Assembly: GCA_947625815.1 (NCBI GenBank) | Contig: CANQPU010000035.1 | Span: 1-50,833, forward strand | Reading direction: 5' to 3' | Source: an uncultured Oscillospiraceae bacterium | GTDB lineage: Bacteria; Bacillota; Clostridia; Oscillospirales; Oscillospiraceae | DNA length: 50,833 bases | Shown here: one piece after another, positions 1,466-20,269 of the stretch | How the letters are laid out: every line of letters begins with the position of its first letter | Position numbering within the stretch: the stretch's first letter is position 1 | Position numbers and translations under genes: made by a program | The notes under the pieces: generated by a model | The model's input: only the letters and a program-made list of their open reading frames with translations | Told to the model about the DNA's origin: nothing | The model's database searches: none

Positions 1466-2148
1466 ATTTTACAATCAACCTTAGAAAAATATTCGGAAAC
1501 TATGCCCATGATTATGTCGGCCAGATTTTGGGGTGATTGATTTGCTGTATCAATACTAAATACGTTTTTGTGAATATGGCTTAATCTCAAGGTTTCATTG
1601 TGCAATTCCAAATTTTTGTCTACTCTGGCACTTGATACTATCCGTCTTGTTTCTGTATCATTTTCGCAATAATCCCGTTCCAACGAGCGCAAGTGTCTTC
1701 TTGCAAAATGCTCATTTTCATCTGACAAATAAAGATTAATCAGAATTACGCTTTCTGTCATCCAAGGAAGCGCACAGTCATTTGGGAAAAAGGTACCTGG
1801 AATAATGCCAGCTCCCTCTATTATTGTAGGAATTCGTCTACGTTGTTGCCTCAATATAATTTCCATAACATACGGGACAAGGAATTCTGATTGAGATTTA
1901 GCTGTTTTAAAATCAGACATGGTAAGTGAATTAAATAGCGCCTCATATTTTTCTATTATTTGATTCCTTCCTAGCTTCTCTTCATCAGCAATCCGCGCAT
2001 AGGCCGTTCTGACGATAGTCCTTACAAGGTCTATTTCACTTACTCTGCGAAATTGCGGATATTTCTTAATGATTTCATATGCTGTCGTCGTTTTCCCGAC
2101 GCATGAAACACCTGAAAGCATCACAATCGCATTATCAGCAACATTCAT
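1450..2148 (-). CDS. P-loop kinase-like protein, 3' end replaced by IS30
   Basis: This 232-residue ATP-binding protein has a Walker A motif near the N-terminus (GVSCVGKTT). A mid-protein segment, IIEGAGIIPGTF, resembles the 2-phosphoglycerate kinase/zeta-toxin-like small-molecule kinase fold; the substrate is unknown. The last residues, KLDT and stop, are encoded by the IS30 terminal repeat, so the native C-terminus is lost. Left of the IS, the minus strand stays open for about 14 codons before a TAA near 193 and then the terminator at 117-165, so only a short tail was cut off. It is AT-richer than the chromosomal genes further right. A GGAGGG site precedes ATG 2148. Confidence 0.7.
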   Translation of the reverse strand: MNVADNAIVMLSGVSCVGKTTTAYEIIKKYPQFRRVSEIDLVRTIVRTAYARIADEEKLGRNQIIEKYEALFNSLTMSDFKTAKSQSEFLVPYVMEIILRQQRRRIPTIIEGAGIIPGTFFPNDCALPWMTESVILINLYLSDENEHFARRHLRSLERDYCENDTETRRIVSSARVDKNLELHNETLRLSHIHKNVFSIDTANQSPQNLADIIMGIVSEYFSKVDCKIKLDT

Positions 2149-2195
2149 GCTTGATACCCTCCGATAATCTGTGATTATCCTTCTATAACGTTCAT

Positions 2196-2218
2196 CGCCG
2201 CCGGGAAATCCGGCGGCG
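2196..2218 (-). terminator. GC-rich hairpin after the recombinase gene
   Basis: Perfect 9-bp stem CGCCGCCGG/CCGGCGGCG with a 5-base loop, directly downstream of the tyrosine recombinase. No T-run follows, so termination may be inefficient. Confidence 0.4.
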
Positions 2219-2233
2219 GTCGTTCTTTACCTG

Positions 2234-3139
2234 TTAAAGCTTAAACGTCATCTTCCCCCTCGGGTGCTTCTCCGCCAGGAGCTGCGTCTGGCGGGGGGAG
2301 GCAACGTGGGTGTAAATCTGAGTGGTGGAGATGGAGCTGTGGCCCAGAAGGGACTGTATGTAGCGGATGTCCATTCCGGCCTCCAGCAGGGATGTGGCGA
2401 ACGTGTGTCGAAACATATGTGGGGTGATGTTGCTGGTCGAGCCGATGCGCTCAAGGTGCTTATGGATGACGCGGCGCACAGACTGCGGCGTCAAGGGATG
2501 GCCGCGGCGATTGATGAGGATGGCGTTTTGGGAACTCATTTCATTGGCGTACTCCGTGCGGTATGTATTCAAAAGTTTTATCAGCTCCGGCGTCGTCAGC
2601 TCGATGACCCGCTCCTTCTGTCCCTTGCCCCTGACCAACAGCCGAAGCTCACTGTCGGACAGCAAAAACGTGTCCGGTGTCAGCGAACACAGCTCCGACA
2701 CACGAAGCCCCGTGCTGAACAAAAGCTCCAGCACCACGATGTCCAGAAGTATCTCACGCCGCTCCGGCTCGTACCCGTCGTAGGCGCTTTGCAGAAGCTC
2801 CCGGACCACATTTTCCGGGATGGTCCTGGGGAGCTGCCGGGGATATTGTATCTTGACGTGGAGCTTGTTAAACGGATTGACCTCGACGATTTCGTTGAAC
2901 TCCAGGTCGCTGAAAAACGCCCGGACACTGGCAAGCTTTCTCTTCACGGATCGTGGCTCAAAGCGCCGGTTGAGGTGCATGATGAACCGACTCAGCGCCT
3001 CCTTCTCCATCCATTCCTCCCCCACGAACTCCCGGAATTGCCGAAGGTCGATGCGGTACGCCTTCAGCGTATCCGGGGAGAGCTTCTTGACATTTTCGCA
3101 GTGTTCCATGTAGTTAGCGATGAGTGTTGATAACTCCAT
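2234..3139 (-). CDS. Tyrosine recombinase (XerC/XerD-like integrase)
   Basis: This site-specific recombinase has 301 residues, the usual length for the Xer group. Residues 1-95 form the SAM-like core-binding domain and about 110-290 the catalytic domain. All active-site residues are visible: R146 in TGLRVSELC, K172 in GKGQKER, H241 and R244 in HMFRH, H267 in LLGHSS and nucleophile Y276 in IYTHV. ATG 3139 has an AAGGAGGG site seven bases upstream, which decides the start. It is an accessory recombinase rather than housekeeping XerC/D, because it sits among mobile DNA next to a cluster of hairpins (3191-3366) that could be its substrate or simply a noncoding repeat. Confidence 0.88.
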   Translation of the reverse strand: MELSTLIANYMEHCENVKKLSPDTLKAYRIDLRQFREFVGEEWMEKEALSRFIMHLNRRFEPRSVKRKLASVRAFFSDLEFNEIVEVNPFNKLHVKIQYPRQLPRTIPENVVRELLQSAYDGYEPERREILLDIVVLELLFSTGLRVSELCSLTPDTFLLSDSELRLLVRGKGQKERVIELTTPELIKLLNTYRTEYANEMSSQNAILINRRGHPLTPQSVRRVIHKHLERIGSTSNITPHMFRHTFATSLLEAGMDIRYIQSLLGHSSISTTQIYTHVASPRQTQLLAEKHPRGKMTFKL

Positions 3140-3190
3140 ATCTTTACCCTCCTTATGGAATATACCCAATTATAATATCCCAAGAGGATG

Positions 3191-6194: not shown

Positions 6195-6561
6195 AATTCT
6201 TCCCTCTGCCTAATTATGGCAAATACTGTTTACTCCTGCCAACTCATTTATAAATTTCTCAACGGCTTTCTATCCTGCGTATTGTAGACCGCAACCCTTT
6301 TTGGATTTTCCGCCAACGGCAAAGTAGCTCCAAAAATTACGCAATGGGACTCCTGACAGTAAATTCTCTCGCCGGTACAAAAAAGAGCCCCAAAACTTGC
6401 ACGTTGGGGCTCCAAATACCAAAAAGTTATGCTTTCTATTTATAGGTGCTGAGAGTGCTCACCTTTTTCGAGCCCTTTTGCTTAACTTTTTCTTGACAAA
6501 CACACAATATTGTATATGTTTACTAAAACTAAAATGAGATCTTCTGGTATCTTTCGGGATA

Positions 6562-8334
6562 TCATGCTGACAACATTGTCTTTGTTACACTATCGATAGT
6601 AATAATCACCCCTTCTTCCGTCAATACAAAATCGCTGACAAGCTCGTCATATATGATGTCTGCCTTTTCTGTTTCTGTGTCGAAACGTGATAGAGTGCCA
6701 TCGGAAGTAATGTAATAGATGTACCTACCGTCAAAGGCGACATTGTGGTTTGAGGGGATCCCAAGCGCGGAAACCTTCCCGGTCCGAAGCTCCACCCGGC
6801 GGATGTCGGAGCCCAGGAGGTAGACGTACCTGTCATCCACGAAGAAATCCCCGCCGATGGGGACGCTCAGGGCTTGCCCGGTGGGCACGTCGATCCCCAA
6901 CACCGTATGCTGGACCACCCTCTCAAACACCACCCGTGAGGTAAACGTGTCGAGATTTACGCAGATGAGGGAGGTTATGTAGGTCTTCCCGGTATCTGAC
7001 GAGAGCTTCTGCCCGTACCCCGCCGAGGCCTGCCTCCACAGATAAACGCAGTTTCCGGCGGCGTAGAAATTGGTATCATACGCCGCCCCGTTCACACTCT
7101 TGAGGGCGTCGCGGATAAGCGGGGCCGAGCGGCCGGAGCTGTCCGTCACGGCAAGCTCCCCGTCCCTGACGCTGACGGTGAGGCCGTTATATTGATAGCT
7201 GCGATGGTCGCGGCTGTTGTATATGGGGACCGCGCCGGGGGTTGACGCCTCTTTCGCGCATCCGGCCAGCATGAGGCAGAGGGCCAGAGGGAGGCAGAAC
7301 GCAACGGCTTTCCCCTTTGGCCCACGCCCGCCCGAAAGGGCCGTTTGGTATCGCTTGTGGATAAACAGTACACCGATCACGCCAATCAGCAAAGTACCCG
7401 CGGCGGTCAGGGCGAGCTTCGCCCAGCCCACCTCCCGGAACACCGCCACGCTTTGGCCGGTTATGGTATCGACCCCATACTCGCTTCCCTGTATAAAACC
7501 GATCGCCGTTATAAAAGAGGAAGGCAGTGGAAGGGAATATTGAACGGACTTGTCAAGCCCGATCCACGGGAGGACGGCAACGGCGGTTCCAAGGAACGCG
7601 GACAGGGCAAACTGGCCGCAGAGGGCGGAGAAGAAAAGGGTTATTACGGCAAGCTCCATCGAACCCAGGAGCCGGAGGCCCACCGTCAGGGCCTCCGCGC
7701 CCCACAGAGGCAGGGCCTTCGCGGCGGAGCCGAGGCTCTCCACGCTCTGCATGGGATATCCGCCGTGGGACAGCCCGTACTTTACCGCAAAAAACGCAAG
7801 ACGCACAAGGTCGGATGACAGCGACAGCGCGGCCGCGACAGTCAGCGTCAGGACGATCTTATGCCGCGCAAAGAGCCGCCTTCCGTTCCGGGAGGTCAGC
7901 GCCAGCGGTTCCATGCCGCTGACTGCCTCGCCGCAGTAAATGGGAACGCACAGCAGAATAATGGCTGCAGCCAAAGGTATATCGAGGGTTCTGTTTGCCA
8001 GCAGGCCCGCCCAACCGTTGGCGTCCAGAAAATAGCGGTTTTCTTTGCCCTCGTTTACATAGAGGTACTGCTCATAAAGTACATCGAACCCCTCGCCGCC
8101 CCGCGCCGTATCCCGCGCCTCTTCTTCCAGAAAGGCGGCCTTTTCCGATGTCCACGGCCCCTCCACTTTTTCAAGCTCGCCGAGATACTGCTCCCTGTAA
8201 AGCGCCGCGCCGGCGTTGACCGGGGCGTCTCCCAGAATCAGCACGGCAAGCTCGGCCACGAGGAACAGCGCGACAATGAGGATGCCACGGTTCATTTTGA
8301 ACATTTTCCGCTCCTCAAACTTCCACAGCGTCAA
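6562..8334 (-). CDS. ABC-2-type permease fused to a lipoprotein-like beta-propeller domain
   Basis: The N-terminal half (about 1-320) is an ABC-2-like half-permease: a first membrane segment at RGILIVALFLVAELAVLILG, an extracytoplasmic region, then about five more segments ending in LLIGVIGVLFIHKRYQ. Near residue 340 a second hydrophobic stretch carries a lipobox-like LMLAGCAKE. The C-terminal 240 residues look like a secreted repeat-sheet protein (DDRYVYLLGSDIRRVEL, DGRYIYYITSDG). A TTG start at 8334 is preferred because it overlaps the upstream TGA, has AAAGGGGG upstream, and gives the LTLWKFEERK start matching its paralogues; ATG 8304 is the alternative. Last gene of the 12535-6562 operon; the IS21-type element ends about 55 bp downstream. 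Confidence 0.68.
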   Translation of the reverse strand: MTLWKFEERKMFKMNRGILIVALFLVAELAVLILGDAPVNAGAALYREQYLGELEKVEGPWTSEKAAFLEEEARDTARGGEGFDVLYEQYLYVNEGKENRYFLDANGWAGLLANRTLDIPLAAAIILLCVPIYCGEAVSGMEPLALTSRNGRRLFARHKIVLTLTVAAALSLSSDLVRLAFFAVKYGLSHGGYPMQSVESLGSAAKALPLWGAEALTVGLRLLGSMELAVITLFFSALCGQFALSAFLGTAVAVLPWIGLDKSVQYSLPLPSSFITAIGFIQGSEYGVDTITGQSVAVFREVGWAKLALTAAGTLLIGVIGVLFIHKRYQTALSGGRGPKGKAVAFCLPLALCLMLAGCAKEASTPGAVPIYNSRDHRSYQYNGLTVSVRDGELAVTDSSGRSAPLIRDALKSVNGAAYDTNFYAAGNCVYLWRQASAGYGQKLSSDTGKTYITSLICVNLDTFTSRVVFERVVQHTVLGIDVPTGQALSVPIGGDFFVDDRYVYLLGSDIRRVELRTGKVSALGIPSNHNVAFDGRYIYYITSDGTLSRFDTETEKADIIYDELVSDFVLTEEGVIITIDSVTKTMLSA

Positions 8335-9536
8335 CGCAAGGCCCCCTTTCGCAGTTTGCTTTTGCCGCCGAAAAGAACGGCCAGCGCGGCGGCGGCAATA
8401 CCAAGCAGGGCCGTGAACACAAGTCCCGCCTGCCAGGTAAGGACGGGTACGCCGAAGATGCTTACAAACTCCGTCCTGCCAAAGAGGAGCCGGTTCACCA
8501 CCACGGAATAGGGGTTCAGCACCTTCGCAAGGGTCCCGCTTGAGTAGCCCCACCTGACCCCCGCCAGGGTACAGGCGAGGAATACGCCCGCGCCCAGTGC
8601 GAAGGGCAGGAGGGCGTGATCTCCGACCTCGCCAAGCGCCAGAAATATCATGCCCAGCGACCAGAAGCCCAGTGCGCGGCTGAGGGCGCTGACGGCACAG
8701 TAGGCGAAGAGCGTGATGTTGACCGATGCCTCCTTGAACGTCTCCGCCGCGTAGACCGGGAGGCCGCCCGCGTCCGTGAGGTTGGAGAACGCCTCAAAGC
8801 CCGCGAAGTCCACGGCGGAAAACCACAGGGAGACGGTGAGTATGTAGATCGATGCCGCCGCGAGTTTCGCAAATATCGTGGAGATTCCTCCGCCGGGGGA
8901 GGTCAGCATCAGCTCCGTCATGCGGCACTCCTTGTCGCGGGTGAAGGTCTGGGAGAGGGCGTAAAGCGCCATCAGAAGGATGAGCATGGTTGAGAAATCA
9001 TAGTTTAAGTAAAGCTTGTACCCCTCCGTGTAGTAAAACCGCGTGACGCGCCGGCCCTGGTAGAGCCTCGCTATGACCGCGTTTCTCCGGGCCTCATAGG
9101 TATTTCCCAGACTTTCGTAAAATTGCGCGTTCTCACGGGCCGCCCGCACCACCTCCGCCGCGTCCGCTCGGTAGGTGTAGAACCGCTTCATGGGGTCAAC
9201 GAAGTATCGCTCAAGCAGGTTCTTGTCGCTGTATACGTTCCCGGTCAGCGTCCCCTCCACATCGCCCCGCGTCGTGGCGGTGAGGTCGTTGACCGCTGTC
9301 TCCAAGGGCTTGTAGACGTCCAACAGCGCGTTTATCTTGGCAAGGGTGATCTCGCCGCTGTAGTTTTCATACTGCTCCCAGTAGACCCGGTTCCAGGTGC
9401 TATCCTCATGCAGATAGGAGATGCTGTCCACGGTGGCGTAAATTTTCGCAAGGTCGAAAACCGTGAACGCCGCCAGGGCAATGACGACAGGCAGCCGCAA
9501 AAAGAGCTTTTTCAGCTCAAAACCCACAAGCCTCAC
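8331..9536 (-). CDS. ABC-2-type transporter permease
   Basis: This 401-residue membrane subunit begins MRLVGFELKKLF, the same cytoplasmic lead-in as the neighbouring permeases. One N-terminal membrane helix is followed by about 160 extracytoplasmic residues rich in charged helices, then about five helices from NYDFSTMLILLMALYAL to the C-terminus. The segment FTRDKECRMTELMLTSPGG resembles the coupling region of ABC-2 exporters. GTG 9536 overlaps the ATPase stop by four bases, so the two are translationally coupled. It should pair with the half-permease at 6562-8334. The substrate is unknown. Confidence 0.8.
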   Translation of the reverse strand: MRLVGFELKKLFLRLPVVIALAAFTVFDLAKIYATVDSISYLHEDSTWNRVYWEQYENYSGEITLAKINALLDVYKPLETAVNDLTATTRGDVEGTLTGNVYSDKNLLERYFVDPMKRFYTYRADAAEVVRAARENAQFYESLGNTYEARRNAVIARLYQGRRVTRFYYTEGYKLYLNYDFSTMLILLMALYALSQTFTRDKECRMTELMLTSPGGGISTIFAKLAAASIYILTVSLWFSAVDFAGFEAFSNLTDAGGLPVYAAETFKEASVNITLFAYCAVSALSRALGFWSLGMIFLALGEVGDHALLPFALGAGVFLACTLAGVRWGYSSGTLAKVLNPYSVVVNRLLFGRTEFVSIFGVPVLTWQAGLVFTALLGIAAAALAVLFGGKSKLRKGALR

Positions 9537-10402
9537 AGCTCCACCTCCCCGAAGTGGGAGAGGAACACATCCTCAAGATTAGGCTCCGCGTGGACCGCGC
9601 TGGGGTGGGGCATCCCCCGGCAGACGATGCGCATAGTCACCCCCGCGCCGGTCCTGCGCATATTGCTGATGTTGAATTTGTCAAACTGCCCCAGGTCCTC
9701 CCCCTCCGGCACCGTCACCGTCCAGACGAGTCCCGCGCACTCCCGCTCCAGCTCGTGGGGCGTGTCCTGACAGACAAGCCGGCCCTCCTTCAAAAGAATG
9801 ACCTCGTTGGCGATGAACTCCACATCGGAGACGATGTGGGTGGCCAGAAGGACCATCCGATCCTTTGAAAATCGGGTGATCAGGTTGCGGAACCGTATCC
9901 GCTCCTGCGGATCAAGCCCCGCCGTGGGTTCGTCGAGAATAAGAATGGCAGGGTCTGACAGCATGGCCTGGACGATGCCCACGCGCTGGCGCATACCGCC
10001 GGACAGCGCCCCCACCTTCTTGTCTCTGGCATCAGAGAGATTGACGACCTCCAGAAGCTCCGACGCCCGCTTTTTGCCCTCAGCCGCCGGGATGCCCTTC
10101 AGGGCGCACATATAGGCCAGAAAGTCCGTCACCGTAAAGTCCCGGTAGAACTCCGGGTACTGGGGCAGGTAGCCGATTCTTGACAAAAACTCCCGCCCCA
10201 GCTCCCGCACGTCTGTGCCGTCCACGGTTATTCTTCCGGAATCTGGCCTCACAAGGCCCACAAGAATACTTATGAGCGTGGTTTTCCCCGCGCCGTTGGC
10301 TCCGAGAAGCCCGTAGACGCCGCTTGAAAGCGTGGCGGAGAAATCTCGGAGGGCGTACTTCCGGCGATAGCGCTTGGAGATGTTTTTAAACCTTATTTCC
10401 AT
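9533..10402 (-). CDS. ABC transporter ATP-binding protein
   Basis: This 289-residue nucleotide-binding subunit powers the membrane partners encoded next to it. Motifs are intact: Walker A GANGAGKTT, Q-loop in IGYLPQYPEF, signature LSGGMRQR, Walker B LILDEPTAGLD and H-loop ATHIV. The C-terminal 70 residues are an accessory region as in CcmA/NatA-type exporters. ATG 10402 is chosen over an upstream TTG because GAGG lies seven bases before it. It follows the lipoprotein gene by nine bases and overlaps the next permease, so it belongs to one operon of four genes. Confidence 0.93.
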   Translation of the reverse strand: MEIRFKNISKRYRRKYALRDFSATLSSGVYGLLGANGAGKTTLISILVGLVRPDSGRITVDGTDVRELGREFLSRIGYLPQYPEFYRDFTVTDFLAYMCALKGIPAAEGKKRASELLEVVNLSDARDKKVGALSGGMRQRVGIVQAMLSDPAILILDEPTAGLDPQERIRFRNLITRFSKDRMVLLATHIVSDVEFIANEVILLKEGRLVCQDTPHELERECAGLVWTVTVPEGEDLGQFDKFNISNMRRTGAGVTMRIVCRGMPHPSAVHAEPNLEDVFLSHFGEVEL

Positions 10403-10411
10403 ATTCAAGCC

Positions 10412-12535
10412 TCACGCAAAGGATAACACCACGACCCGCGCCGGTATGTCTGAAAATCCGCCGATCTTCACAAGGCACAGCTTCAGATCATCCAAAATGA
10501 GGATTCCGGGCGCGGCATTGAAAACATCCTCATTTTCGTCCGTGATGGTGTACTCCAGGTGCAGGCTGTCATCCTTCGACCCGTAGATTCGCACAGTCAG
10601 ATCACCGTCAAAAGCGGTGGTGGCAAAATACTCGCCGTCGCGGGAGACATAGAGATCTCCGCTGCCCTCCTGTGCTGAGTGCTTGTAGATCACACTGGTC
10701 AACCCGTCAACATCCGCCACAGCCATGGCCCCGGAGGCAGCAAAGAAGTTTTCATTGAAAAGTATCTTCCCTCCGGCATACCCCACCGGCCCCTGGGGGT
10801 CGAAGCCGTCGAACCCGGCGCAGACAAGGTCCTCGCCGTCAAGCCCCACACTGCCAAAATGAGCGTTGTCTGCAAAGACCAATTTAGAGGCGTCCTCATT
10901 GAACCAGAGGCCCGTGGCCATCGTGATGCCGCTGTTCTCATCCCTGTGACCACTGGTCAGATCGCGCAGAAGCGTGACCTTATCGGTGTCGCGGGAGTAG
11001 AGGTATATCCCGTCATTCATAATGGAGAAGGCCACATAACGCCCGTCCGGGGAAATGGCGGCACACATGATGTTCTTATCCCCTCCGGCGAGAGCGGAGA
11101 GGGAAAACCTGTCTGTTTCCGAAAGTGCGCTGTCAAGAAAAACGCACACCGTGCCGCTCCCGCCGGGAACGGTCTGCGTCAATACGGCGGCCCCGCCGCC
11201 TCCCTCCGCCTCGCCCACGGCGCAGAAGCCTCCGTTGATTGGATGGTATGCGGCGTTCTTGAGATCAGGAACCGGCCCCTCGGCCAGAACCTGGCCGGAC
11301 CTCATGTCAACAAGGCACAGTCCATCCGACTTTCTGACAAGCACGGTGTCCCCTTGACCGTACCACAGGGAACGGACGTTTTCGTCCAGCGCCTCGGGGG
11401 TTTCCGTCACGCTGACGGCGGATGTGCCACTCCCGGTCTGATTACCATCGCCTAACCCACCCGCGTCGAGCTTGTCCTGAGACCATATGGGCAGGGAGTC
11501 TGTTTTGATCAGCCCCCAGCTTCGGGCGTTGCCGTCCTCGCCGTCCCTGATACAGGCGACGGCGTAGAAGGTGGTCACCCCCTCCAGGCTGTCCAGGCTG
11601 AGGTCGCCTTCCACTCTCGCGACCTTCCCTTTTTCCAGAGTCACCTCCCAAACCGCGCCGGCCCCGTCCGACAGAGGCACGTGGTCCGCGAAAAAGGAGA
11701 CCTCGTAGGTGATCCCCGGTATTCCGCAGATGTCCAGCGCCACGTGGAGAGAGTCTCTCCCCGTAACGTCAAGGTCGTTGAGCTCCTGCTTTCCGTCATA
11801 GGTGTCGAAAACGTAGACGGTCTTGTCGAGCCTGTCCTGGCGCGTCTCTCCGTCCGACACGGCCATGCCGACCTTCGCGCCCAGGTTTTTCTCCACAAAT
11901 TCCGCGGTCATCAGCTCATTTGTGACCGTAACGCTGGTCAGCGCCTTTAAGGGCTCCGCGCCCGGAGCCCCGGTCTCGGGATCGGCGGAAAAATGGATGA
12001 AGTTTATGGTGCTGAGCGCGTCGCCGTAGAGGCCAAAGTTAGACGAGCTCACCATATCCGGCTCAAAATCGGCGTTGAAAATATTGGCCACGGTAAAGGT
12101 CAGCGTCTCCCCGGCCGCCCCAGCGACGGGGACAAAGTTAAAGGTGAACTGCTCCTCCACGTTATCCTCACGGAGTGTGAACGGGTGCATGTAGCCGTAC
12201 TCGCCCTGGCCGTTTAGTCTGTAGGGCTGGGGTATGCCGTTAAGGAACAGCAGAAACCCCACATTTCTTCCGGCTCCATCGCCCTCGGCGCGGTAGGGGA
12301 CCTCCAGCTCGCCGCCGGAATACTCCAGCGGCGCGTCTTCATCGCGCCCCGGCCAATTTCCGCTGTGCGCAACATAGCCGAGGATCTCCGGCGGCCCTTC
12401 ATAGTCGAAGGGGTTGTCCTGGATCTCATCGTCCCCGCCACCATATGTACCGCCGGGATCTTTATTTGTCCCACAACCAGATAAAAGGGAAATGAGTAGG
12501 CATGCGACCAGTAAAAATGTTAGTTTTGTTTTCAT
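10412..12535 (-). CDS. Large lipoprotein heading the second ABC operon
   Basis: This 707-residue exported protein has a lipoprotein signal (MKTKLTFLLVACLLISLLSGCG, lipobox LLSGC) and should be anchored to the outer face of the membrane. The first half contains beta-rich extracellular segments. From about residue 390 repeated sheet-like units (GQGDTVLVRKSDGLCLVD, SPDGRYVAFSIMNDGIYLY) suggest a propeller. ATG 12535 has AAAGGAG eight bases upstream. It is first in the operon with ATPase 9533-10402 and the two permeases, suggesting a sensing or substrate-binding part. Its promoter carries the direct repeats shared by the block. No named family recognised. Confidence 0.75.
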   Translation of the reverse strand: MKTKLTFLLVACLLISLLSGCGTNKDPGGTYGGGDDEIQDNPFDYEGPPEILGYVAHSGNWPGRDEDAPLEYSGGELEVPYRAEGDGAGRNVGFLLFLNGIPQPYRLNGQGEYGYMHPFTLREDNVEEQFTFNFVPVAGAAGETLTFTVANIFNADFEPDMVSSSNFGLYGDALSTINFIHFSADPETGAPGAEPLKALTSVTVTNELMTAEFVEKNLGAKVGMAVSDGETRQDRLDKTVYVFDTYDGKQELNDLDVTGRDSLHVALDICGIPGITYEVSFFADHVPLSDGAGAVWEVTLEKGKVARVEGDLSLDSLEGVTTFYAVACIRDGEDGNARSWGLIKTDSLPIWSQDKLDAGGLGDGNQTGSGTSAVSVTETPEALDENVRSLWYGQGDTVLVRKSDGLCLVDMRSGQVLAEGPVPDLKNAAYHPINGGFCAVGEAEGGGGAAVLTQTVPGGSGTVCVFLDSALSETDRFSLSALAGGDKNIMCAAISPDGRYVAFSIMNDGIYLYSRDTDKVTLLRDLTSGHRDENSGITMATGLWFNEDASKLVFADNAHFGSVGLDGEDLVCAGFDGFDPQGPVGYAGGKILFNENFFAASGAMAVADVDGLTSVIYKHSAQEGSGDLYVSRDGEYFATTAFDGDLTVRIYGSKDDSLHLEYTITDENEDVFNAAPGILILDDLKLCLVKIGGFSDIPARVVVLSFA

Positions 12536-12566: not shown

Positions 12567-12598
12567 ATCATACAGCTTGAAAGTCAAAATTCGGACAA
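12567..12598 (-). promoter_or_regulatory. Promoter with TTGNC direct repeats (lipoprotein/ABC operon 2)
   Basis: Reading leftward: TTGTC, six bases, TTGAC, ten bases, TATGAT. The half-sites are 11 bp apart, typical of OmpR-family response-regulator sites. The same layout occurs at 18172-18203 and 20238-20269. The downstream half-site takes the place of a -35 box with too short a spacer for a normal sigma-A promoter, which suggests activation. Confidence 0.65.
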
Positions 12599-12637
12599 GA
12601 AATTAAAAAATATCGTTCTTGAGGAGCCCATGGGGCT

Positions 12638-13408
12638 TTACCTTGTTCCCAGCATATCCAAAGCACCGTTCATAACAGCTTGGGCTATCGTGTCCTGATA
12701 GTCTGCTGACTGGAGCCTGGCGCGCTCGGCGGGGTTGGACAGGAAACCAATCTCCATGAGCGCCGCGGGCATTGTGGTGTCCCGAATGACCTGGAAGTTT
12801 TCGTCCTTGACATTGCGGGTCTTGACGCCCAACGCGTCGGCCGCCGCCAATATGTACTCCGCCAGTCGCTGCCCCTTTGTGCCGTTATGGTAGTAGCCCT
12901 CAAAGCCGCTGATAGAGCTGTCCTCATAGGAATTGCAGTGGACGCTCACAAAGAGGTCGGCGGAGGCGTCATTGGCGATCCGGCACCGCCGGTCCAGGCT
13001 CACGTCCGTATCGTCCTTCCGCGTCAAAATGACCGTCACGCCCTCGGCCCTCAGCTTTTCGGCGGCAAGCAAAGTTACTGCGAGAGTGATGTCCTTTTCC
13101 AGCACGCCGTCAAAGGCACAGCCGGACTGAACGCCGCCGTGTCCCGCGTCCAGAACGACCGTATATACTTCGATGGCTTCCGTTGCGGGATCGCTCCACG
13201 CCGCTCCCCCGCCTGTATCCGTGAAATTCTCCCCCTTTGGCTGGCCCTCGTCATCGCTTTTGGAAAAGATGTGCTCCCTGACATACAAAATGCCGCAAAT
13301 CAGGAGCGCGGCCAGCAACACCGCCAGCAGGGCGATAAACGCACGCAAAGCATAGGCCATCGCCAGCCTCACTCCCCGCTTTTTTCTTCTTGGCGACACA
13401 CGATCCAT
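12638..13408 (-). CDS. N-acetylmuramoyl-L-alanine amidase (Amidase_3), membrane-anchored
   Basis: This zinc amidase cleaves the lactyl-peptide bond of peptidoglycan outside the cell. Of its 256 residues, about 15-42 form an uncleaved signal anchor (AFIALLAVLLAALLICGILYV). A linker follows, then the catalytic domain from about residue 82. Zinc ligands are visible as the H of DAGHGG, the E of VLEKD and the H of SVHCNS; the catalytic glutamate is in MEIGFLSN. It resembles CwlD/LytC catalytic domains but lacks extra binding repeats. It is last in the 18140-12638 operon, 16 bases after the permease, which links this ABC system to the cell wall. Confidence 0.9.
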   Translation of the reverse strand: MDRVSPRRKKRGVRLAMAYALRAFIALLAVLLAALLICGILYVREHIFSKSDDEGQPKGENFTDTGGGAAWSDPATEAIEVYTVVLDAGHGGVQSGCAFDGVLEKDITLAVTLLAAEKLRAEGVTVILTRKDDTDVSLDRRCRIANDASADLFVSVHCNSYEDSSISGFEGYYHNGTKGQRLAEYILAAADALGVKTRNVKDENFQVIRDTTMPAALMEIGFLSNPAERARLQSADYQDTIAQAVMNGALDMLGTR

Positions 13409-13424
13409 TTTCTATCTCCGCCCC

Positions 13425-15695
13425 TCACGTAAAGAACCAGGCGTATACAGGATATAACGAGAAGCTTTGGGCGGCTTTGAGGCCCAGCGCGGAAAGGACG
13501 CAGGGGGCGGCCAGGAGCAGGAATGCGAGAAAAATCGTTTGGATATGGCTCCTGCGCCAAAAGGACAACAGCGCAACGGTCAGCGCCATGACCGCGCCGC
13601 AGAGCATCTGGAGCGCCAGCTTTGCCGCTCCCAGGGCCCCCGCCGGGACAAATGCAGGCAGGCCCCGGTAAAGGGGGATCATCCGGGCCGGGGTAAAAAG
13701 GCCGTGTATGGGAAAGGCCCTGACCGTGGAAATGGCCCTAAAAAGGAATGGGACGGCGGCGAAAATCGCCCCGGCGAGGGCGCACAGGATGAGCTTTCGC
13801 CGCAAAACGCCCCCGCCGCCCGTTTTGGTGGCGCAAAGGACGCTCCACGCGCCGCCGGAAAACTCCATGGCCCCGGCGCCGGACAGGGCGAGAATGAGGC
13901 CCATGGTCAGAAGGAGAAAGCCCGACAGCTCCGCCTCCCCCAGCGCGCCCATCAGGTAGAGCCAGCCGGTGTCGTAAAGAAACGCGCCGCCAGCCTTGAC
14001 AAGCTCGTATTGATCCAGGACCCGCTCAAAGGCGGGATAAAAAGCGGTGACGGCCTGCCAGTTGGCCTTCAGCGCATCGCCCACATCCTCCGAAAGCTCC
14101 CCGGAGGCCACGGCGGCGTCGATTTGGCGTATTTCCTCAAATGCCTCGTCAAACCGGGCTTTCTCCGAGGCGATGAGCGCCTCCTTTTCCTCCGTCAGCT
14201 CCCCCTCCAGGCTCAGCATGACGCTCTGATAATACTGCTCCGTGGAGGAGGGGGTGTAGGGTTTGGAAAGGCTCTGCGCGGCAATGAGGCACGAGAATGT
14301 GAGCAGGAGAGCAAGGCCGTGATTGGTGATGAGGAGCTTGTACGCCTCATGCCGCGTAAGGGAGGCGTGGGGGCGAAAAGGCAATGGACGGGGGCGCAAG
14401 GCACGCGCCGCCGTTTGCCCGATGGGACGCCAGTACAGGAAAAGGTCGAGGACGATGCCGATAAGGGCTGTGGCTAACCCAAGGCCCAAGCTCAATACCG
14501 TGCGCGAGACAGGTTTTCCTCCCAGGTTCAGATTCAGATAGGCGCCGAAAATACTCTCCGTCCGCAGGAGGGCAAAGAGATTGAGGTGCTTTGCGGGACT
14601 TGCCACCGAGGCCGCCGGGACAAAGCGCCAAAGCGCGAAGCTTACGACCCACAAAACCGCGCCTCCAAAGTACGGAACGGTCACGCGGCCGCTCACGATA
14701 CAAAGCCCGGTAATCAGCGCGAAGGCCGCGAACAGCGTAAGGCTCTTTGCAGCTACGGACAGGGCATAGAACTCTAAGACAGTGATTTTGAGACCGCTCT
14801 CCCTATACGCGGCCACCGATTGAAGCCGGACATTCAGATCCCACCACCCGGCGGTAACGCCGGAAAAGAGGACGTCAACGGTGAAGAACACCGTCTCCGT
14901 CACAACGCAGTAGATAAGCAGGGCCAGGAGCTTGGCGGTTACGGTGGGAACCACGCCGCGCTTTGTGGCCCTGGTGACAGCCGCCAGCCCCTTCAGCTTC
15001 TCGTCGGACACAAGGCCGGTGACGAAAAGGAAGGACAGCGCAATCATCAGAAGGTCGGCCCACAGATTTTGCGCCGGCGCGGTAATAGGCGCGGAGGGTA
15101 TCCAGCTGATGCCCTCCGTCGTCAGCGACGCGTGGTCGGCGGCGCTTTTTTTGATGTTCCGGGAGGAAAAGCTGTCATCGTTTTGGGCGTTTGCGAAAAT
15201 GGAGATACCGCCCAGAAGATTTTCCCGCTCCTGAACGTCCTGAAGGTACAACCCATAGCCGTAAACCTTGCTCTCCTCGCCGTAGATCCTGTCGATAAAC
15301 GCCTTTTCCGCCGCCAGGGAGTCGGTATAGTGCAGGTAAGCCCCAGAGGTATAGAGGTCATAGTATTTTTCAAAGACGCCGGGGTTCTCCGCCAGCTCCT
15401 GCTCGGCGAACTGCTCCCCTATCCCGGAGGCGCGCAGGAGCAGGATATCGTCTACAAACGTTACGCCGTCAATGGTCTCCCGGAGCTTACCCACATAGGC
15501 GTGCTTCTCCTCCTCGCTCATGCCGGAGATGTCGGCATAAAGCCTCTTGTACGCCGCCAGCCCCGGCGCGGACGAGCCTCCAAGGCTTGAATACCACAGA
15601 ATGAATACATTGACCGCCAACAGCGCCAGCGCGGAGAGAACGAACGCCCGTCGCCGCCACACCTTGGAAAGCTCAAACAGCGTGAGGCGTACCAT
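13425..15695 (-). CDS. Fused double ABC-2-type permease
   Basis: This 756-residue membrane protein consists of two half-permeases in tandem. The first starts MVRLTLFELSKVWRRRAF and the second near residue 450 at SLTRHEAYKLLITNHG. Each half has a membrane helix, a large charged extracytoplasmic loop and about five further helices. In the neighbouring operon these halves are separate genes, so this one looks like a fusion. ATG 15695 overlaps the ATPase gene by 23 bases and follows an AGGAGGGGG stretch. It works with ATPase 15673-16419 and probably exports, or senses and removes, an unknown compound. Confidence 0.8.
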   Translation of the reverse strand: MVRLTLFELSKVWRRRAFVLSALALLAVNVFILWYSSLGGSSAPGLAAYKRLYADISGMSEEEKHAYVGKLRETIDGVTFVDDILLLRASGIGEQFAEQELAENPGVFEKYYDLYTSGAYLHYTDSLAAEKAFIDRIYGEESKVYGYGLYLQDVQERENLLGGISIFANAQNDDSFSSRNIKKSAADHASLTTEGISWIPSAPITAPAQNLWADLLMIALSFLFVTGLVSDEKLKGLAAVTRATKRGVVPTVTAKLLALLIYCVVTETVFFTVDVLFSGVTAGWWDLNVRLQSVAAYRESGLKITVLEFYALSVAAKSLTLFAAFALITGLCIVSGRVTVPYFGGAVLWVVSFALWRFVPAASVASPAKHLNLFALLRTESIFGAYLNLNLGGKPVSRTVLSLGLGLATALIGIVLDLFLYWRPIGQTAARALRPRPLPFRPHASLTRHEAYKLLITNHGLALLLTFSCLIAAQSLSKPYTPSSTEQYYQSVMLSLEGELTEEKEALIASEKARFDEAFEEIRQIDAAVASGELSEDVGDALKANWQAVTAFYPAFERVLDQYELVKAGGAFLYDTGWLYLMGALGEAELSGFLLLTMGLILALSGAGAMEFSGGAWSVLCATKTGGGGVLRRKLILCALAGAIFAAVPFLFRAISTVRAFPIHGLFTPARMIPLYRGLPAFVPAGALGAAKLALQMLCGAVMALTVALLSFWRRSHIQTIFLAFLLLAAPCVLSALGLKAAQSFSLYPVYAWFFT

Positions 15696-16419
15696 CCTCC
15701 CCCTCCTCTCCAAAGAGCCTCATATACACGTCCTCCAGGCTGGCCGCCCCGTGGATTTCGCAAAGCTCCTCCACCGTCCCCCGGTCAATAATCTCTCCGC
15801 TTTTGAGCAGTATGATCTCGTCCGCGATCGTCTCAATGTCCGAGACCACGTGGGTGGATACGAGAATTATCCGCCCCTCCGAAAGCTGGGCAATCCGCTC
15901 CCGGATCCTCACCCGCTCCTTTGGGTCCAGCCCCGCCGTGGGTTCGTCGAGAACAACGAGCTTGGGGTCGCCTAAAATGGCCTGGGCGATCAAAAGCCGC
16001 TGTTTCATGCCGCCGGAATAGGTGCCGATAAGGCGGTTTGCGTTCTCAGTCATATTGACATACCGCAGGACGCGGTCAATTTCTCCCAGCTGTTCCCGGC
16101 TCCTGATACCCTTGAGGGTGGCCATGTAGCTTAAAAACCGCCGCCCGGTAAAGGCGTCGTACATCCCCTGCTGTTGGGGCGCAAAGCCCAGGATGGCCCT
16201 ATACTCAGCCCCAAGGGCGCCGGTCTCCGTCCCGTTCCACTTACACCTGCCGCCCGTGGGGCGCAGATTGCCAGTGATGATGTTCATAAGGGTGGACTTC
16301 CCCGCCCCGTTGGGGCCCAAAAGCCCGTAGACACCGTTATGAAGCGTGAGGTTTATGCCGGTGAGCGCCAGCTTGTCTTTATACTTTTTGGAAATGTCGC
16401 AAAGCTCCAGCATGGTCAC
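15673..16419 (-). CDS. ABC transporter ATP-binding protein
   Basis: This 248-residue ABC ATPase has intact motifs: Walker A GPNGAGKST, signature YSGGMKQR, Walker B LVVLDEPTAGLD and H-loop STHVV. It is related to the ATPase at 9533-10402. GTG 16419 overlaps the lipoprotein stop codon and has GGAGG seven bases upstream; the ATG two codons later is the alternative. It partners with the overlapping fused permease. The gene order lipoprotein-ATPase-permease repeats that of the second operon, indicating duplication of a whole module. Confidence 0.93.
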   Translation of the reverse strand: MTMLELCDISKKYKDKLALTGINLTLHNGVYGLLGPNGAGKSTLMNIITGNLRPTGGRCKWNGTETGALGAEYRAILGFAPQQQGMYDAFTGRRFLSYMATLKGIRSREQLGEIDRVLRYVNMTENANRLIGTYSGGMKQRLLIAQAILGDPKLVVLDEPTAGLDPKERVRIRERIAQLSEGRIILVSTHVVSDIETIADEIILLKSGEIIDRGTVEELCEIHGAASLEDVYMRLFGEEGEDGTPHAV

Positions 16420-18140
16420 ATCCCCGCCTCCATCATCTTGATTGGGGCGTAGTTTCCCCGTCCGGCGCACAGGTCTGCAAGGCTTATGAGGCCGAAATAG
16501 TTTTGCTTTGTGGAGAAGGACCCGTCTGACCGGAAGGTGGCGTCGCTGTCGTATATGACAAGGACCTGGCCGCCCGCCTCGGCAATGATTTCGAGGTGGA
16601 CACCTGTGGTTTTATTCTTAAGTCCACATCGGCTGATGCTCCCGCTGTCGGGGTCGATGAAATAGAAGCCGTCCTCATACTCCCAGGTGTAGGGCCTGCC
16701 GCCAACGATGCCCCAAATCCTGTCGTGGGAGGTCTTGCACAGGACCCGCTCCCTGCCGTTGGAAACGGAAACAGCCAGAATTTTCCCTCCCCCATCCACA
16801 GAGTAATAGAGCGTTTCCCCGTCCAGCGCCCAGCTTCGGGATTTCGGATACTTCACCCGGTAGAACTCCCGGAGCTTGCCGGTATCCACATCCAGCGCGG
16901 CAAAAACATCGCAGGCATTGTCATAGATGTTGCGGTCATTTTTTATCTCCTGGCTGGTCACCGCCCGTCCAAAGTCGATGCCGCTGAGGATGAGCTCCCG
17001 ACCATACGCGCCCGCCGGGTTCCAGTCCACATTGTCGCCGAAGTCCATGTTGCAAACCGTGGACAGCTTCCCGGTAGAGAGATCCAGCCGGACAAGCTTC
17101 CTGTCGGTGGCGGTGAAATAGGTGCTTCCGCCGGACGATTGCGTGGATACTTTCTTGGTGATGAAATAGAGTCCACTGCCGTCCCCGGCGGCAAAGCTCT
17201 CTACGGTGAGATTGGCCCCAAAAGCGTAGATTTTCTTTCTGCCTGTGCCATCGGCGTTTATCTGATAAAGCTCGGCTCGGCCACCCTGAGTGGAAGTCCC
17301 GCTGGAGGATCCCATCATAACGACACCCTCCTGGTCAGGCTGGCTCACCAGGAGGTAGAGCTTTCCGTTCATGGTAAAAAGGGACATACCGCTGTGGTGG
17401 AAGTCCTCTTCTGGGAATACCGCCGTGCAGTCGTCGGTGTTGTGTGCGCAGGAGGGGTCGCTGCAAAGATAGACCTCACGCTGTGTGGCATAGTCTATAT
17501 ACATTAAGTGATGTCCGTCCCGACCATCGGTAAGCCGTCCGGCCCCCAGCGTCATGTAGTAAAAGCCGCTCTCCGTGCCGCAGCCCAGAAGCGTCCCCTG
17601 GTCCGCAGTCAAAATGGTCAAAGAGTTGGATGGTAACGGCTCGGTAGATTGTTGAGGTTCCGTGTCCGTTTGGGGGTTCGTACCCGTCTGAGGGTCAGTA
17701 CCCGTTTGGGGGTCAGTGCCCGTCTGGGGGTCAGTACCCGTCTGAGGGTCAGTACCCGTCTGAGGGTCAGTACCCGTTTGGGGGTCAGTGCCCGTCTGGG
17801 GGTCAGTACCCGTCTGGGGGTCAGTACCCGTTTGGGGGTCAGTACCCGTCTGGGGGTCAGTACCCGTCTGGGAGTCAGTGTCCGTCTGGGGTTCCGTACC
17901 CGTCTGAAGGTCAGTACCCGTCTGAGGTTCGGTATCCGCCGAGGTATCCATATTTCCCGGCTGTCCGGCAGGCGGGAGATTCTCCCCGGTATTCTGGGGC
18001 CCCGTCCCAGAAACCGTCTCCCCGTCGGTGTTTCCGATCGGGGTTATTTCCTCGTTCTCCTGGCTTCCTAATATACCGCAGCCAGGCAGCAGGAAAACCA
18101 GCATACACGCGATAACAATAATAACTACTTTAGATTTCAT
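16416..18140 (-). CDS. Lipoprotein with DPQTGT repeat stalk and sheet-repeat domain
   Basis: This 574-residue exported lipoprotein has the lipobox LLPGC near residue 22. Residues about 60-165 are a threonine/proline-rich stalk of about 15 hexapeptide repeats (ten are exact DPQTGT). The C-terminal 400 residues are sheet-rich with cysteines (CSDPSCAHNTDDC) and motifs such as GSGLYFITKK and DGETLYYSVDGGGKILAV, suggesting a propeller-like ligand domain on a spacer. ATG 18140 has AAAGGAG eight bases upstream; an ATG immediately before it is less well spaced. It heads the operon with the ATPase, fused permease and amidase. Confidence 0.78.
   Translation of the reverse strand: MKSKVVIIVIACMLVFLLPGCGILGSQENEEITPIGNTDGETVSGTGPQNTGENLPPAGQPGNMDTSADTEPQTGTDLQTGTEPQTDTDSQTGTDPQTGTDPQTGTDPQTGTDPQTGTDPQTGTDPQTGTDPQTGTDPQTGTDPQTGTDPQTGTNPQTDTEPQQSTEPLPSNSLTILTADQGTLLGCGTESGFYYMTLGAGRLTDGRDGHHLMYIDYATQREVYLCSDPSCAHNTDDCTAVFPEEDFHHSGMSLFTMNGKLYLLVSQPDQEGVVMMGSSSGTSTQGGRAELYQINADGTGRKKIYAFGANLTVESFAAGDGSGLYFITKKVSTQSSGGSTYFTATDRKLVRLDLSTGKLSTVCNMDFGDNVDWNPAGAYGRELILSGIDFGRAVTSQEIKNDRNIYDNACDVFAALDVDTGKLREFYRVKYPKSRSWALDGETLYYSVDGGGKILAVSVSNGRERVLCKTSHDRIWGIVGGRPYTWEYEDGFYFIDPDSGSISRCGLKNKTTGVHLEIIAEAGGQVLVIYDSDATFRSDGSFSTKQNYFGLISLADLCAGRGNYAPIKMMEAGM
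17651..17940. repeat. Tandem 18-bp coding repeat
   Basis: About 15 copies of an 18-bp unit (plus-strand core GGGTCAGTACCCGTCTGG) encode the DPQTGT stalk. The ten central copies differ only at third codon positions. It is a coding minisatellite likely to change length by slippage or recombination. There are no unique spacers, so it is not a CRISPR array. Confidence 0.92.
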
Positions 18141-18171
18141 CATGATTGCTCCTTTCATGTGGTTTACAATA

Positions 18172-18203
18172 ATCATAAGACCCAATGGTCAAAAATTGGT
18201 CAA
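18172..18203 (-). promoter_or_regulatory. Promoter with TTGAC direct repeats (lipoprotein/ABC operon 1)
   Basis: Leftward: TTGAC, six bases, TTGAC, ten bases, TATGAT, upstream of the lipoprotein start at 18140. The layout is identical to that at 12567-12598 and 20238-20269, which is evidence for shared control by the response regulator encoded next door. Confidence 0.68.
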
Positions 18204-18208
18204 GGCCG

Positions 18209-18243
18209 CAAAAAAGCCGCCCACTTTTTTGTGAGCGGCTTTT
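18209..18243 (-). terminator. Terminator of the two-component operon
   Basis: Hairpin AAAAGCCGC/GCGGCTTTT closes just after the histidine kinase stop at 18249. On the minus strand it is followed by a T-run and lies immediately upstream of the next promoter, so it separates the two transcription units. Confidence 0.75.
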
Positions 18244-18248
18244 GGAGC

Positions 18249-19550
18249 CTATATTTTCTTGACAGCCACCGTGATCTCCACCACGGCCCCGCCCTCCGGG
18301 GCGTTCATGATTTTGAGGCCCCCTCCGTGAAGTTCACAGAGGATCTTGCTTGTGGCAAGGCCCAGCCCCATATGTTCGCCGGAGGCGTCCTCGGAGTAGT
18401 AGAGGCTTGACTTCTTTTTCAGCATTTCCGCGGAAAAGCCGGGGCCGTCATCGGTGATTTTGGCAAGAAGCGTCTCCCTGCGAAGCTCAAACGCAAGCTC
18501 GACCCAGCTTTTGGCGTATCTCACGGCGTTGGAAAAGGCATTTTCCAAGACCCGGTAGAATATCTCCCGGTCCAGCTCAATGACGCCCTCCGGCACATCG
18601 TAGAAATCGCTGACCGTCAGGCCCTTCGGTTCAGCCAGCACCCGCACGCCCTCCGCCGCCTCCCTGAGAAAGTCCGGCAGCGCCGCCTCGGTCATGGTTA
18701 TCTCCGTGTCCTCGATGGCGGACAAATCCCGAATATAATCTGTGTATCGCTCCATCCGCTTGGCGGTGACGGTCAGGCTCTCCAGCGCATCGTCCAGCTT
18801 GTCCCCCGTCAGCTCCCCGGCGGGGGCCAAAACGCGCAAATGCTCCAGTGTCCCCTCCATGATGGACAAGGGGTTTCTCAAATCGTGGGCCACCGACGCC
18901 TGCATGGTCCGCCGCTCCTCAATGGAGCGCCAGAGCTTGAGATTGTTGTCATAGAGGGCGCGGCGCATCTTTTCAAAGGAACCGCAAAGCCGGCCAAGCT
19001 CATTATGGACAGGGCACTCCACGTTGAAATCCAGGTCCTGCTCGCTTATGTGCCTTGTGGCATCGTCAAGGACCGTGATAGCCGGTGCCAACCGTTTTCG
19101 ATAGAACCATATGGCGCAAAGAAGCACTCCGACGATGAAAAAAATGATTGGAAGTACACCCATTAAGATACCGGCTGCCGTATAAACAGCCCGCTGCCTG
19201 GAATTTAACTGCGCAATGCTTGGCTCGATACTCTCAATGGAGAACTCCGCCTCCCCAACCAGAAAATCCGAATCTTCCAAAATATCGGGCTTGCTCCATT
19301 CATCGGAGATCCATGTGATTGGCTGTGCCTTGCCGTCCAACTCGATTTCATAACGAGTCCATCCGCCCTCCCTGTCGCCCCTTTTTTCCCCTATATAGAG
19401 TGCGACCATGTCAGGATTTGGCAGCAGCCAACGCCGGACCTTCCAACACCCCCACACCGTCAGCGCAGAGGCCAAAAGGATAACCAATAGTGTCACCGCC
19501 ACCGCAATGGAAAATTCTGCTCTTAATGAGCGCGTTCTCACTTTTTCCAT
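18249..19550 (-). CDS. Sensor histidine kinase
   Basis: This 433-residue membrane kinase should phosphorylate the regulator encoded upstream. Membrane helices lie at about 14-36 and 121-149, with a roughly 85-residue extracytoplasmic sensor between them. A HAMP-like segment follows. The phosphoacceptor is H222 in SVAHDLRNPL. ATP-binding boxes: N in ENAFSNAVRY, G1 ITDDGPGFS and G2 GEHMGLGLATSK. ATG 19550 overlaps the response-regulator gene by 13 bases. Flanking ABC transporters, lipoproteins and an amidase suggest it senses an envelope stress or a peptide ligand; that role is inferred. Confidence 0.93.
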   Translation of the reverse strand: MEKVRTRSLRAEFSIAVAVTLLVILLASALTVWGCWKVRRWLLPNPDMVALYIGEKRGDREGGWTRYEIELDGKAQPITWISDEWSKPDILEDSDFLVGEAEFSIESIEPSIAQLNSRQRAVYTAAGILMGVLPIIFFIVGVLLCAIWFYRKRLAPAITVLDDATRHISEQDLDFNVECPVHNELGRLCGSFEKMRRALYDNNLKLWRSIEERRTMQASVAHDLRNPLSIMEGTLEHLRVLAPAGELTGDKLDDALESLTVTAKRMERYTDYIRDLSAIEDTEITMTEAALPDFLREAAEGVRVLAEPKGLTVSDFYDVPEGVIELDREIFYRVLENAFSNAVRYAKSWVELAFELRRETLLAKITDDGPGFSAEMLKKKSSLYYSEDASGEHMGLGLATSKILCELHGGGLKIMNAPEGGAVVEITVAVKKI

Positions 19551-20212
19551 CTGTACCCCATCCCCCAAATCGTTTCGATAAATTCCTGACCCGTGACCTC
19601 TAAGAGCTTTTGGCGTATTTTGCGGATATGCTCCTTGATGACCTTGCTGTCGCCCTCGGCGTCCAGCCCCCAGATGAGCTCGTACATCCGCTCCCGGTCA
19701 AAAATCTGCCCTTGGTTCATAACAAGAAATTCAATGACCTCATATTCCCGCCTGGAGAAGCGTATCTCCGCGCCCTCCCACTCTACCCGCCGGCCGGCAA
19801 GGTCCACGATGAGCCCATGGGATGACACGAGGCTCGTATTCCGATTTTGCCTCTCGTCCCGCCGAAGATGCGCCTCGATCCGGGCCGACAGTTCCGCAAG
19901 GCTGAAAGGCTTTGTGATGTAGTCGTCGCCCCCGGCCTGAAGCCCGCGTATCTTGTCCTGTTCCGTGATCCGCGCCGTTAGGAAAAGGATGGGGCAACTC
20001 ACGGTGTCCCGTATGGCCCTGCACAGCTCCAGCCCGTCCATTCCCGGCATGTTGATGTCAAGCAAAATAAGATCGGGACTGAGTCCCAATTTGTCGATAA
20101 CCTCGCGGCTGTTATCTGCCACGATGGTCGTATACCCCTCCCGTTTCAAATACTCTGACAAAACCCCCGTCAGCATCGCCTCGTCGTCAGCGAGCAGAAT
20201 TTTGTATGCCAT
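19538..20212 (-). CDS. OmpR/PhoB-family response regulator
   Basis: This 224-residue transcription factor has a receiver domain (about 1-118) with acidic pocket D9/D10, phosphoacceptor D52 in LILLDINMPG and the conserved lysine in ITKPFSL. The C-terminal winged helix (about 128-222) includes FSRREYEVIEFLV and IRKIRQKLLE. ATG 20212 follows GAGGTGATGGT. It is first in an operon with the kinase. Its own promoter and those of both ABC operons share 11-bp-spaced TTGNC repeats, so it probably autoregulates and activates both modules. Confidence 0.94.
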   Translation of the reverse strand: MAYKILLADDEAMLTGVLSEYLKREGYTTIVADNSREVIDKLGLSPDLILLDINMPGMDGLELCRAIRDTVSCPILFLTARITEQDKIRGLQAGGDDYITKPFSLAELSARIEAHLRRDERQNRNTSLVSSHGLIVDLAGRRVEWEGAEIRFSRREYEVIEFLVMNQGQIFDRERMYELIWGLDAEGDSKVIKEHIRKIRQKLLEVTGQEFIETIWGMGYRWKK

Positions 20213-20237
20213 ACCATCACCTCGTTGTAATGTTAAA

Positions 20238-20269
20238 AACATACCGCCAAAAAGTCAAGAAAAAGTCAA
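20238..20269 (-). promoter_or_regulatory. Promoter with TTGAC direct repeats (two-component operon)
   Basis: Leftward: TTGAC, six bases, TTGAC, ten bases, TATGTT. The spacing matches the other two sites of the block, and in this copy the repeats are near-perfect 11-mers (TTTTTCTTGAC). A second reading (TTGACT, 17 bases, TAACAT) would give a standard sigma-A promoter allowing basal expression. Confidence 0.65.

Follow-up and report, generated by a model that had tools for sequence, protein, structure and literature searches.

Three promoters of a two-component and lipoprotein locus in an uncultured Oscillospiraceae bacterium share a predicted response-regulator operator

The three boxes and the genes behind them

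We analysed a stretch of 50,833 nucleotides from an uncultured Oscillospiraceae bacterium (contig CANQPU010000035.1 of assembly GCA_947625815.1; "the window" below means this whole stretch), which encodes a two-component system, made of a response regulator (RR) and a sensor histidine kinase, and two lipoprotein/ABC transporter operons. The pattern TTGNC-N6-TTGAC-N10-TATGWT, considered here as the predicted operator of this RR, occurs three times in the window, always on the minus strand and within a span of 7.7 kb: upstream of the RR gene and of the genes of the two lipoproteins, LP1 and LP2. The three 32-mers are exactly as they had been given in a preliminary description of this DNA, which took them to define a regulon of the adjacent two-component system.

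20238-20269, minus strand: box 1, RR promoter, TTGAC-TTTTTC-TTGAC-TTTTTGGCGG-TATGTT; half-sites at 20265-20269 and 20254-20258, proximal -10 element TATGTT at 20238-20243
18172-18203, minus strand: box 2, LP1 promoter, TTGAC-CAATTT-TTGAC-CATTGGGTCT-TATGAT; half-sites at 18199-18203 and 18188-18192, -10 element TATGAT at 18172-18177
12567-12598, minus strand: box 3, LP2 promoter, TTGTC-CGAATT-TTGAC-TTTCAAGCTG-TATGAT; half-sites TTGTC at 12594-12598 and TTGAC at 12583-12587, -10 element TATGAT at 12567-12572

The distance from the end of the box to the start codon is 25 nt for the RR gene (ATG at 20212), 28 nt for LP1 (ATG at 18143) and 31 nt for LP2 (ATG at 12535). The genes of the locus are the following.

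19538-20212, minus strand: RR of the OmpR/PhoB type, with receiver and Trans_reg_C domains
18249-19550, minus strand: sensor histidine kinase, with HisKA and HATPase_c domains, and HAMP slightly under the cut-off
18221-18238, minus strand: terminator-like hairpin between the kinase gene and box 2, weak (11 such sites in the region vs 16.4 expected from shuffles)
16416-18143, minus strand: lipoprotein LP1, a predicted beta-propeller after a long repeat linker; no Pfam family at E 0.001
15673-16413, minus strand: ABC transporter ATPase 1, from Pfam
13425-15695, minus strand: large multi-pass membrane protein of 756 aa, presumed permease 1 because it follows the ATPase; no match to a Pfam family at E 0.001
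12638-13408, minus strand: N-acetylmuramoyl-L-alanine amidase (Amidase_3), CwlD-like, the match to the CwlD model being under its cut-off
10412-12535, minus strand: lipoprotein LP2, with an N-terminal domain and a predicted WD40-like propeller
9533-10402, minus strand: ABC transporter ATPase 2, from Pfam
8331-9536, minus strand: ABC-2 type permease 2a (E 5.6e-7, 29.4 bits vs a cut-off of 31.6), which resembles ABC2_membrane_3
6562-8307, minus strand: membrane protein 2b, assigned by reading, with an extracellular part at its C-terminus; no match to a Pfam family at E 0.001

The regulator belongs to the OmpR family, as had been proposed: Pfam finds both the receiver (Response_reg, E 5.7e-28) and the winged-helix domain (Trans_reg_C, E 6.8e-20). 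The operon behind box 2 encodes LP1, an ABC ATPase, the 756-aa membrane protein and the Amidase_3 protein, and the operon behind box 3 encodes LP2, the second ATPase and two further membrane proteins. The locus does not qualify as a module of the BceRS/BceAB type, there being no FtsX family among the Pfam matches of its membrane proteins.

Specificity and conservation of the box

In the genome of the window (1,895,667 bases in 35 contigs), the strict pattern matches the three sites described above and no other, with 0 matches of the reversed-pattern control, and none is found in any of 100 simulated windows (second-order Markov). The pair of half-sites without the -10 element (TTGNC-N6-TTGAC) is present 4 times in the window and 7 times in 20 simulated ones; the fourth in the window, at 39519 on the minus strand, was discarded, having no TATGWT at N10. 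If up to 3 mismatches to TTGAC-N6-TTGAC-N10-TATGAT are tolerated, 12 places are found in the genome, of which the three boxes have 0-1 mismatch and nine have 3, and the reversed controls give 3 places. One of the 3-mismatch places, at 6482-6513 on the plus strand, was set aside: it holds an ordinary promoter-like pair, TTGACA-16-TATGTT (6493-6520), and the next plus-strand open reading frame (ORF) of at least 70 aa starts at 7217.

The pattern is not a common feature of unrelated promoters, an outcome which the preliminary description had named as contrary to its proposal. Among 150 genomes of the family there are 6 matches, in 4 genomes (G000, G020, G116 and G122), and 0 in controls: three are those of the window's own genome and the others lie, one each, upstream of the RR gene in G020, G116 and G122. 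A match to the RR protein at E up to 1e-70 is present in 11 of the 150 genomes, and it reaches at least 65% identity solely in the 4 that bear the pattern.

The genus was scanned (34 genomes) with a looser pattern, which ends in TANNNT. All 11 genomes that encode the RR have a match, whereas 2 of the 23 genomes without RR have one unrelated match each (Fisher p 2.7e-7). Out of 28 places (3 in controls), 24 belong to the RR system: 10 are at the RR gene, 7 at LP1, 5 at LP2 and 2 at a gene for a GDSL-type hydrolase which stands behind the kinase (Pfam was run on one of the two). The four matches elsewhere are in G157, G153 and G166:C44, and, in G154, inside the LP2 coding region. In G193, the eleventh RR genome, it is the LP2 box that matches; both TTGAC repeats are present in the RR promoter of this genome, whose -10 element, TAAAAC, is outside the pattern. 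G162 contains kinase fragments, with no RR match and no box.

To follow the box further, we used 80 loci, the best 80 of 559 confirmed relatives, collected by the similarity of the RR protein alone, so that the promoter was no selection criterion. With a box defined here by N9-11 and TANNNT, 68 of the 80 loci have one no more than 110 bp from the RR start, and in 7 it is 129-2032 bp upstream (L084, L105, L113, L121, L123, L126 and L135), where the gap looks like a DNA insertion in the leader. In 57 loci there is a second box, 2.0-8.5 kb downstream of the RR start, and it precedes a lipoprotein-like ORF in 54 of these 57 (53 with a lipobox-like start, plus L132, which the filter missed); in L066 and L067 it stands before the GDSL-type gene, and the case of L091 is ambiguous.

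The spacing, identical among the three promoters of the window, is conserved in the orthologous loci. In the 1,287,872 bases of the 80 loci, a search for TTGAC-Nk-TTGAC yields 129 occurrences for k=6, while no other k between 0 and 15 exceeds 9, and TATNNT stands at N10 in 122 of the 129. The chance origin of the three boxes is ruled out by this excess, by the 3 vs 0 matches in the genome and by the simulated windows. Once duplicates are removed, the RR boxes number 42 and the LP boxes 31. Within the window's clade (11 RR promoters), the identity is 1.00 in the half-sites, 0.87 in the -10 element and 0.25-0.30 in the 60 bp upstream; the conserved block therefore begins at the first half-site.

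Two side observations concern promoters of these relatives. In the LP1 promoters of L047, L048, L050 and L055, the -10 element is TACCAT and forms part of an inverted repeat, TTTACC-ATTAY-GGTAAA, that spans the putative start region; the window does not show the repeat in this form. In L088 (6900-8200, minus strand), a second box pair flanks a 4Fe-4S ferredoxin-like gene in place of RR and kinase, and an RR-like start codon context persists behind the first box of this pair.

A wider scan, with the TATNNT pattern, covered 20 of the 80 locus-bearing genomes, picked for named species and for diversity, where two RR genes are boxless. It gives 43 places (6 in controls), which we assigned ourselves, using the coordinate match to the RR loci for places without locus: 17 are at RR genes, 19 at lipoprotein genes, 2 in the context of the system (in G209, at the end of a contig, following an amidase gene; in G200, ahead of an RR-like start) and 5 are unrelated. 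Separately, one 32-mer match and its neighbouring DNA are present twice in G199 (C21:65636 and C60:10638), in an unrelated setting.

The box also marks LP2 operons that are far from the RR gene. In three draft genomes (G171, G154 and G168) it precedes an LP2 operon on a contig other than that of the RR, at a distance of at least 40 kb in G168, and in G212 it precedes an LP2 operon 42 kb from the RR. Because these unlinked operons carry the box and because the spacing is conserved, the earlier idea of one closed circuit is well supported.

The boxes could instead be bound by another regulator, such as a different OmpR-type protein, the adjacent RR being merely under the same control. OmpR-family paralogues do exist in these genomes, and the binding of the adjacent RR is something we infer. 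We consider this alternative very unlikely, since the box co-occurs with the adjacent RR across genomes and since the nine nearest RR paralogues examined (about 50% identical) have no such repeat within 200 bp of upstream DNA. The recognition helix reads AEH, VEH or MEH in these nine paralogues and KEH in all 80 close relatives, which suggests that the lysine may read the box; the RRs of the boxless loci keep this lysine too.

The RR promoter and the points of doubt

The preliminary description took the short gap between the box and the -10 element as a sign that activation replaces a normal -35 element at all three promoters. This reading fits the two lipoprotein promoters, where the promoter scan reports no ordinary sigma-A -35/-10 pair, which speaks against ordinary sigma-A promoters at all three boxes. 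It has to be corrected for the RR promoter, because there the second half-site is also part of TTGACT-17-TAACAT, an arrangement that is kept in relatives.

20230-20235, minus strand: candidate distal -10 element TAACAT, 17 nt from TTGACT (20253-20258), from the promoter scan

A distal -10 element (TANNNT, as TAACAT, TACAAT or TAAAAT) is kept 16-18 nt from the half-site in all 10 nearest loci (L058-L067). It is found in 1 of the 58 other boxed RR promoters (L073), and TANNNT at this distance in 0 of the 57 second boxes. The RR promoter may thus have a basal sigma-A start, an RR-activated start or both. It is conceivable, and we put it forward tentatively, that in the window's clade one TTGACT serves both as RR half-site for the activated start and as sigma-A -35 element for the basal start. 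If so, binding of the RR would shift transcription of its own gene from the basal to the induced start, while the target promoters, which have no second -10, would stay RR-dependent.

The same distal element would also fit a simpler case, in which the second TTGACT is the -35 element of a constitutive sigma-A promoter of the RR gene, the RR represses itself or is inert there, and only the lipoprotein operons are activated. We regard this as improbable: the very promoters that have the distal element also retain the proximal TATNNT at N10, the distal one is nearly confined to L058-L067, the first TTGAC would be left without explanation, and the underlying scan found 9 promoter-like sites vs 6.2 expected.

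Several observations weigh against the boxes being the operators of the adjacent RR. For five of the 80 RR genes no box is within reach (L076, L102, L106, L128 and L137), although a one-base variant is present in L106 and the sequence of L128 reaches only 334 bp upstream. No second box is in reach in 23 of the 80 loci, 9 of which extend over 9 kb past the RR start on its downstream side, and an unlinked target was found for just two of these nine (L060, in G171, and L065, in G212). The counts are not independent, because the loci are related. In the window's clade, the RR promoter also fits an ordinary sigma-A promoter, unlike those of LP1 and LP2. Finally, boxes 2 and 3 of the window may be one promoter that was duplicated, because their similarity extends into the leader and signal-peptide DNA that follows (53 alignment columns, 75% identical, E 5e-5).

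Taken to its end, this last point would mean that the boxes are alike only through promoter copying and have no regulatory meaning, which is hardly credible. Box 1 shares nothing outside the box: at most 19 weak columns, inside the box, align with box 3, and nothing aligns with box 2. Moreover, in 31 of the 43 loci L058-L100, those with both boxes, the spacer letters of RR and LP boxes are 57% alike and the flanks 25-30%, yet half-sites and spacing are fixed.

Proposed regulation and known systems

We propose that the three boxes are very probably the operators of the OmpR/PhoB-type RR encoded at 19538-20212, which would thus govern a closed, autoregulated regulon by an activation of the CiaR/PhoP kind; the same box stands at the regulator gene and at the target operons. 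A single dimer of the phosphorylated RR would occupy the pair of TTGAC half-sites, arranged head to tail at an 11-bp interval, from one side of the helix. Since the second half-site takes up the -35 position and stops 10 nt short of the -10 element, RNA polymerase would be recruited by the DNA-bound regulator (class II activation). The kinase would sense an envelope signal, and the RR would raise its own operon and switch on the two related lipoprotein/ABC/permease operons, one of which includes a cell-wall amidase. That the RR activates rather than represses is suggested by analogy, since the geometry matches that of CiaR and is close to PhoP architecture I.

This kind of system is already known. 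In the literature searched we came across no account of either the operator or the regulon, and a text search for the exact box gave no paper. The spa-box of SpaR consists of (A/T)TGAT pentanucleotide repeats with six bases between them; the SpaR system belongs to a lantibiotic cluster, and its half-site differs from TTGAC. No lantibiotic biosynthesis gene was identified among the genes adjoining the RR system here.

CiaR of streptococci recognizes the direct repeat TTTAAG-N5-TTTAAG, with an 11-bp period and ten nt to a TATAAT -10 element (PMC3091779). The present boxes have the same period, the same distance and an OmpR-type RR, and differ by the half-site (TTGAC) and by the number of promoters, three in place of the 15 of CiaR, which include those of small RNAs (PMC3091779). 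In architecture I of Salmonella PhoP, a direct-repeat box lies over the place of the -35 element, at the promoter of the regulator too, and class II activation is predicted (PMC3335776). The boxes described here likewise occupy the position of the -35 element, at one turn of the helix from the -10 element, and one of them stands at the regulator's own gene, whereas the PhoP half-site is (T/G)GTTTA, at 12 nt from the -10, and the PhoP regulon is large, with several architectures (PMC3335776). An 11-bp period with the box about 10-12 nt from the -10 element, as in these two systems, is what we find in the window.

SaeR of Staphylococcus binds GTTAAN6GTTAA, also a pentamer-N6-pentamer repeat, and its sensor system pairs an autoinduced promoter with a separate basal one; half-site and targets differ from ours, and the basal promoter of SaeRS is elsewhere in the operon (PMC5083920). 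RR_1586 of Clostridioides difficile is an OmpR-type RR with a head-to-tail repeat and autoregulation, whose regulon was found via conserved sites; it differs by its half-site, TTAAG, and by several unlinked targets in sporulation and germination (PMC6222199).

As to the products of the operons, LP1, LP2 and the 756-aa membrane protein are named by no Pfam or NCBIfam family. The predicted structures of LP1 (mean pLDDT 59) and LP2 (74) are both propeller-like, with matches to TolB-type and WD40-type folds, from which we suggest, with modest confidence, that the two are lipid-anchored propellers; the TM-scores are too low to name a function, and fold matches were discarded for that purpose. Between signal peptide and propeller, LP1 has a long run of DPQTGT-type repeats (about 17650-17930) whose length varies among relatives. 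LP2, one fused protein in the window (10412-12535), corresponds to two adjacent lipoprotein genes in relatives (L071, 12534-14779; L083; L120). The window has both the LP1-type and the LP2-type operon; most loci outside the genus carry the split LP2-type operon (as read in L071, L083, L088 and L120).

In relatives, a separate GDSL-type gene stands between permease 1 and the amidase (about 1700-2648, minus strand, in L047), and the first ~47 residues of the window's amidase (13330-13408) match the N-terminus of its product; the window may have lost this gene by fusion or deletion. The ORFs 315-1412 and 2234-3169 resemble, as judged by eye, an IS30-type transposase and a tyrosine recombinase.

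Propeller lipoproteins, ABC-type transporters and an amidase, with a GDSL hydrolase in relatives, make a role of this circuit in the sensing and maintenance of the cell envelope likely. The box gives the sensor system of many gut Oscillospiraceae and Lachnospiraceae a sharply defined and nearly system-specific predicted operator, so that its target genes can be read from the sequence even when they are distant from the sensor. It is thus a handle on lipoprotein/ABC-exporter/amidase operons of commensals that are otherwise anonymous.

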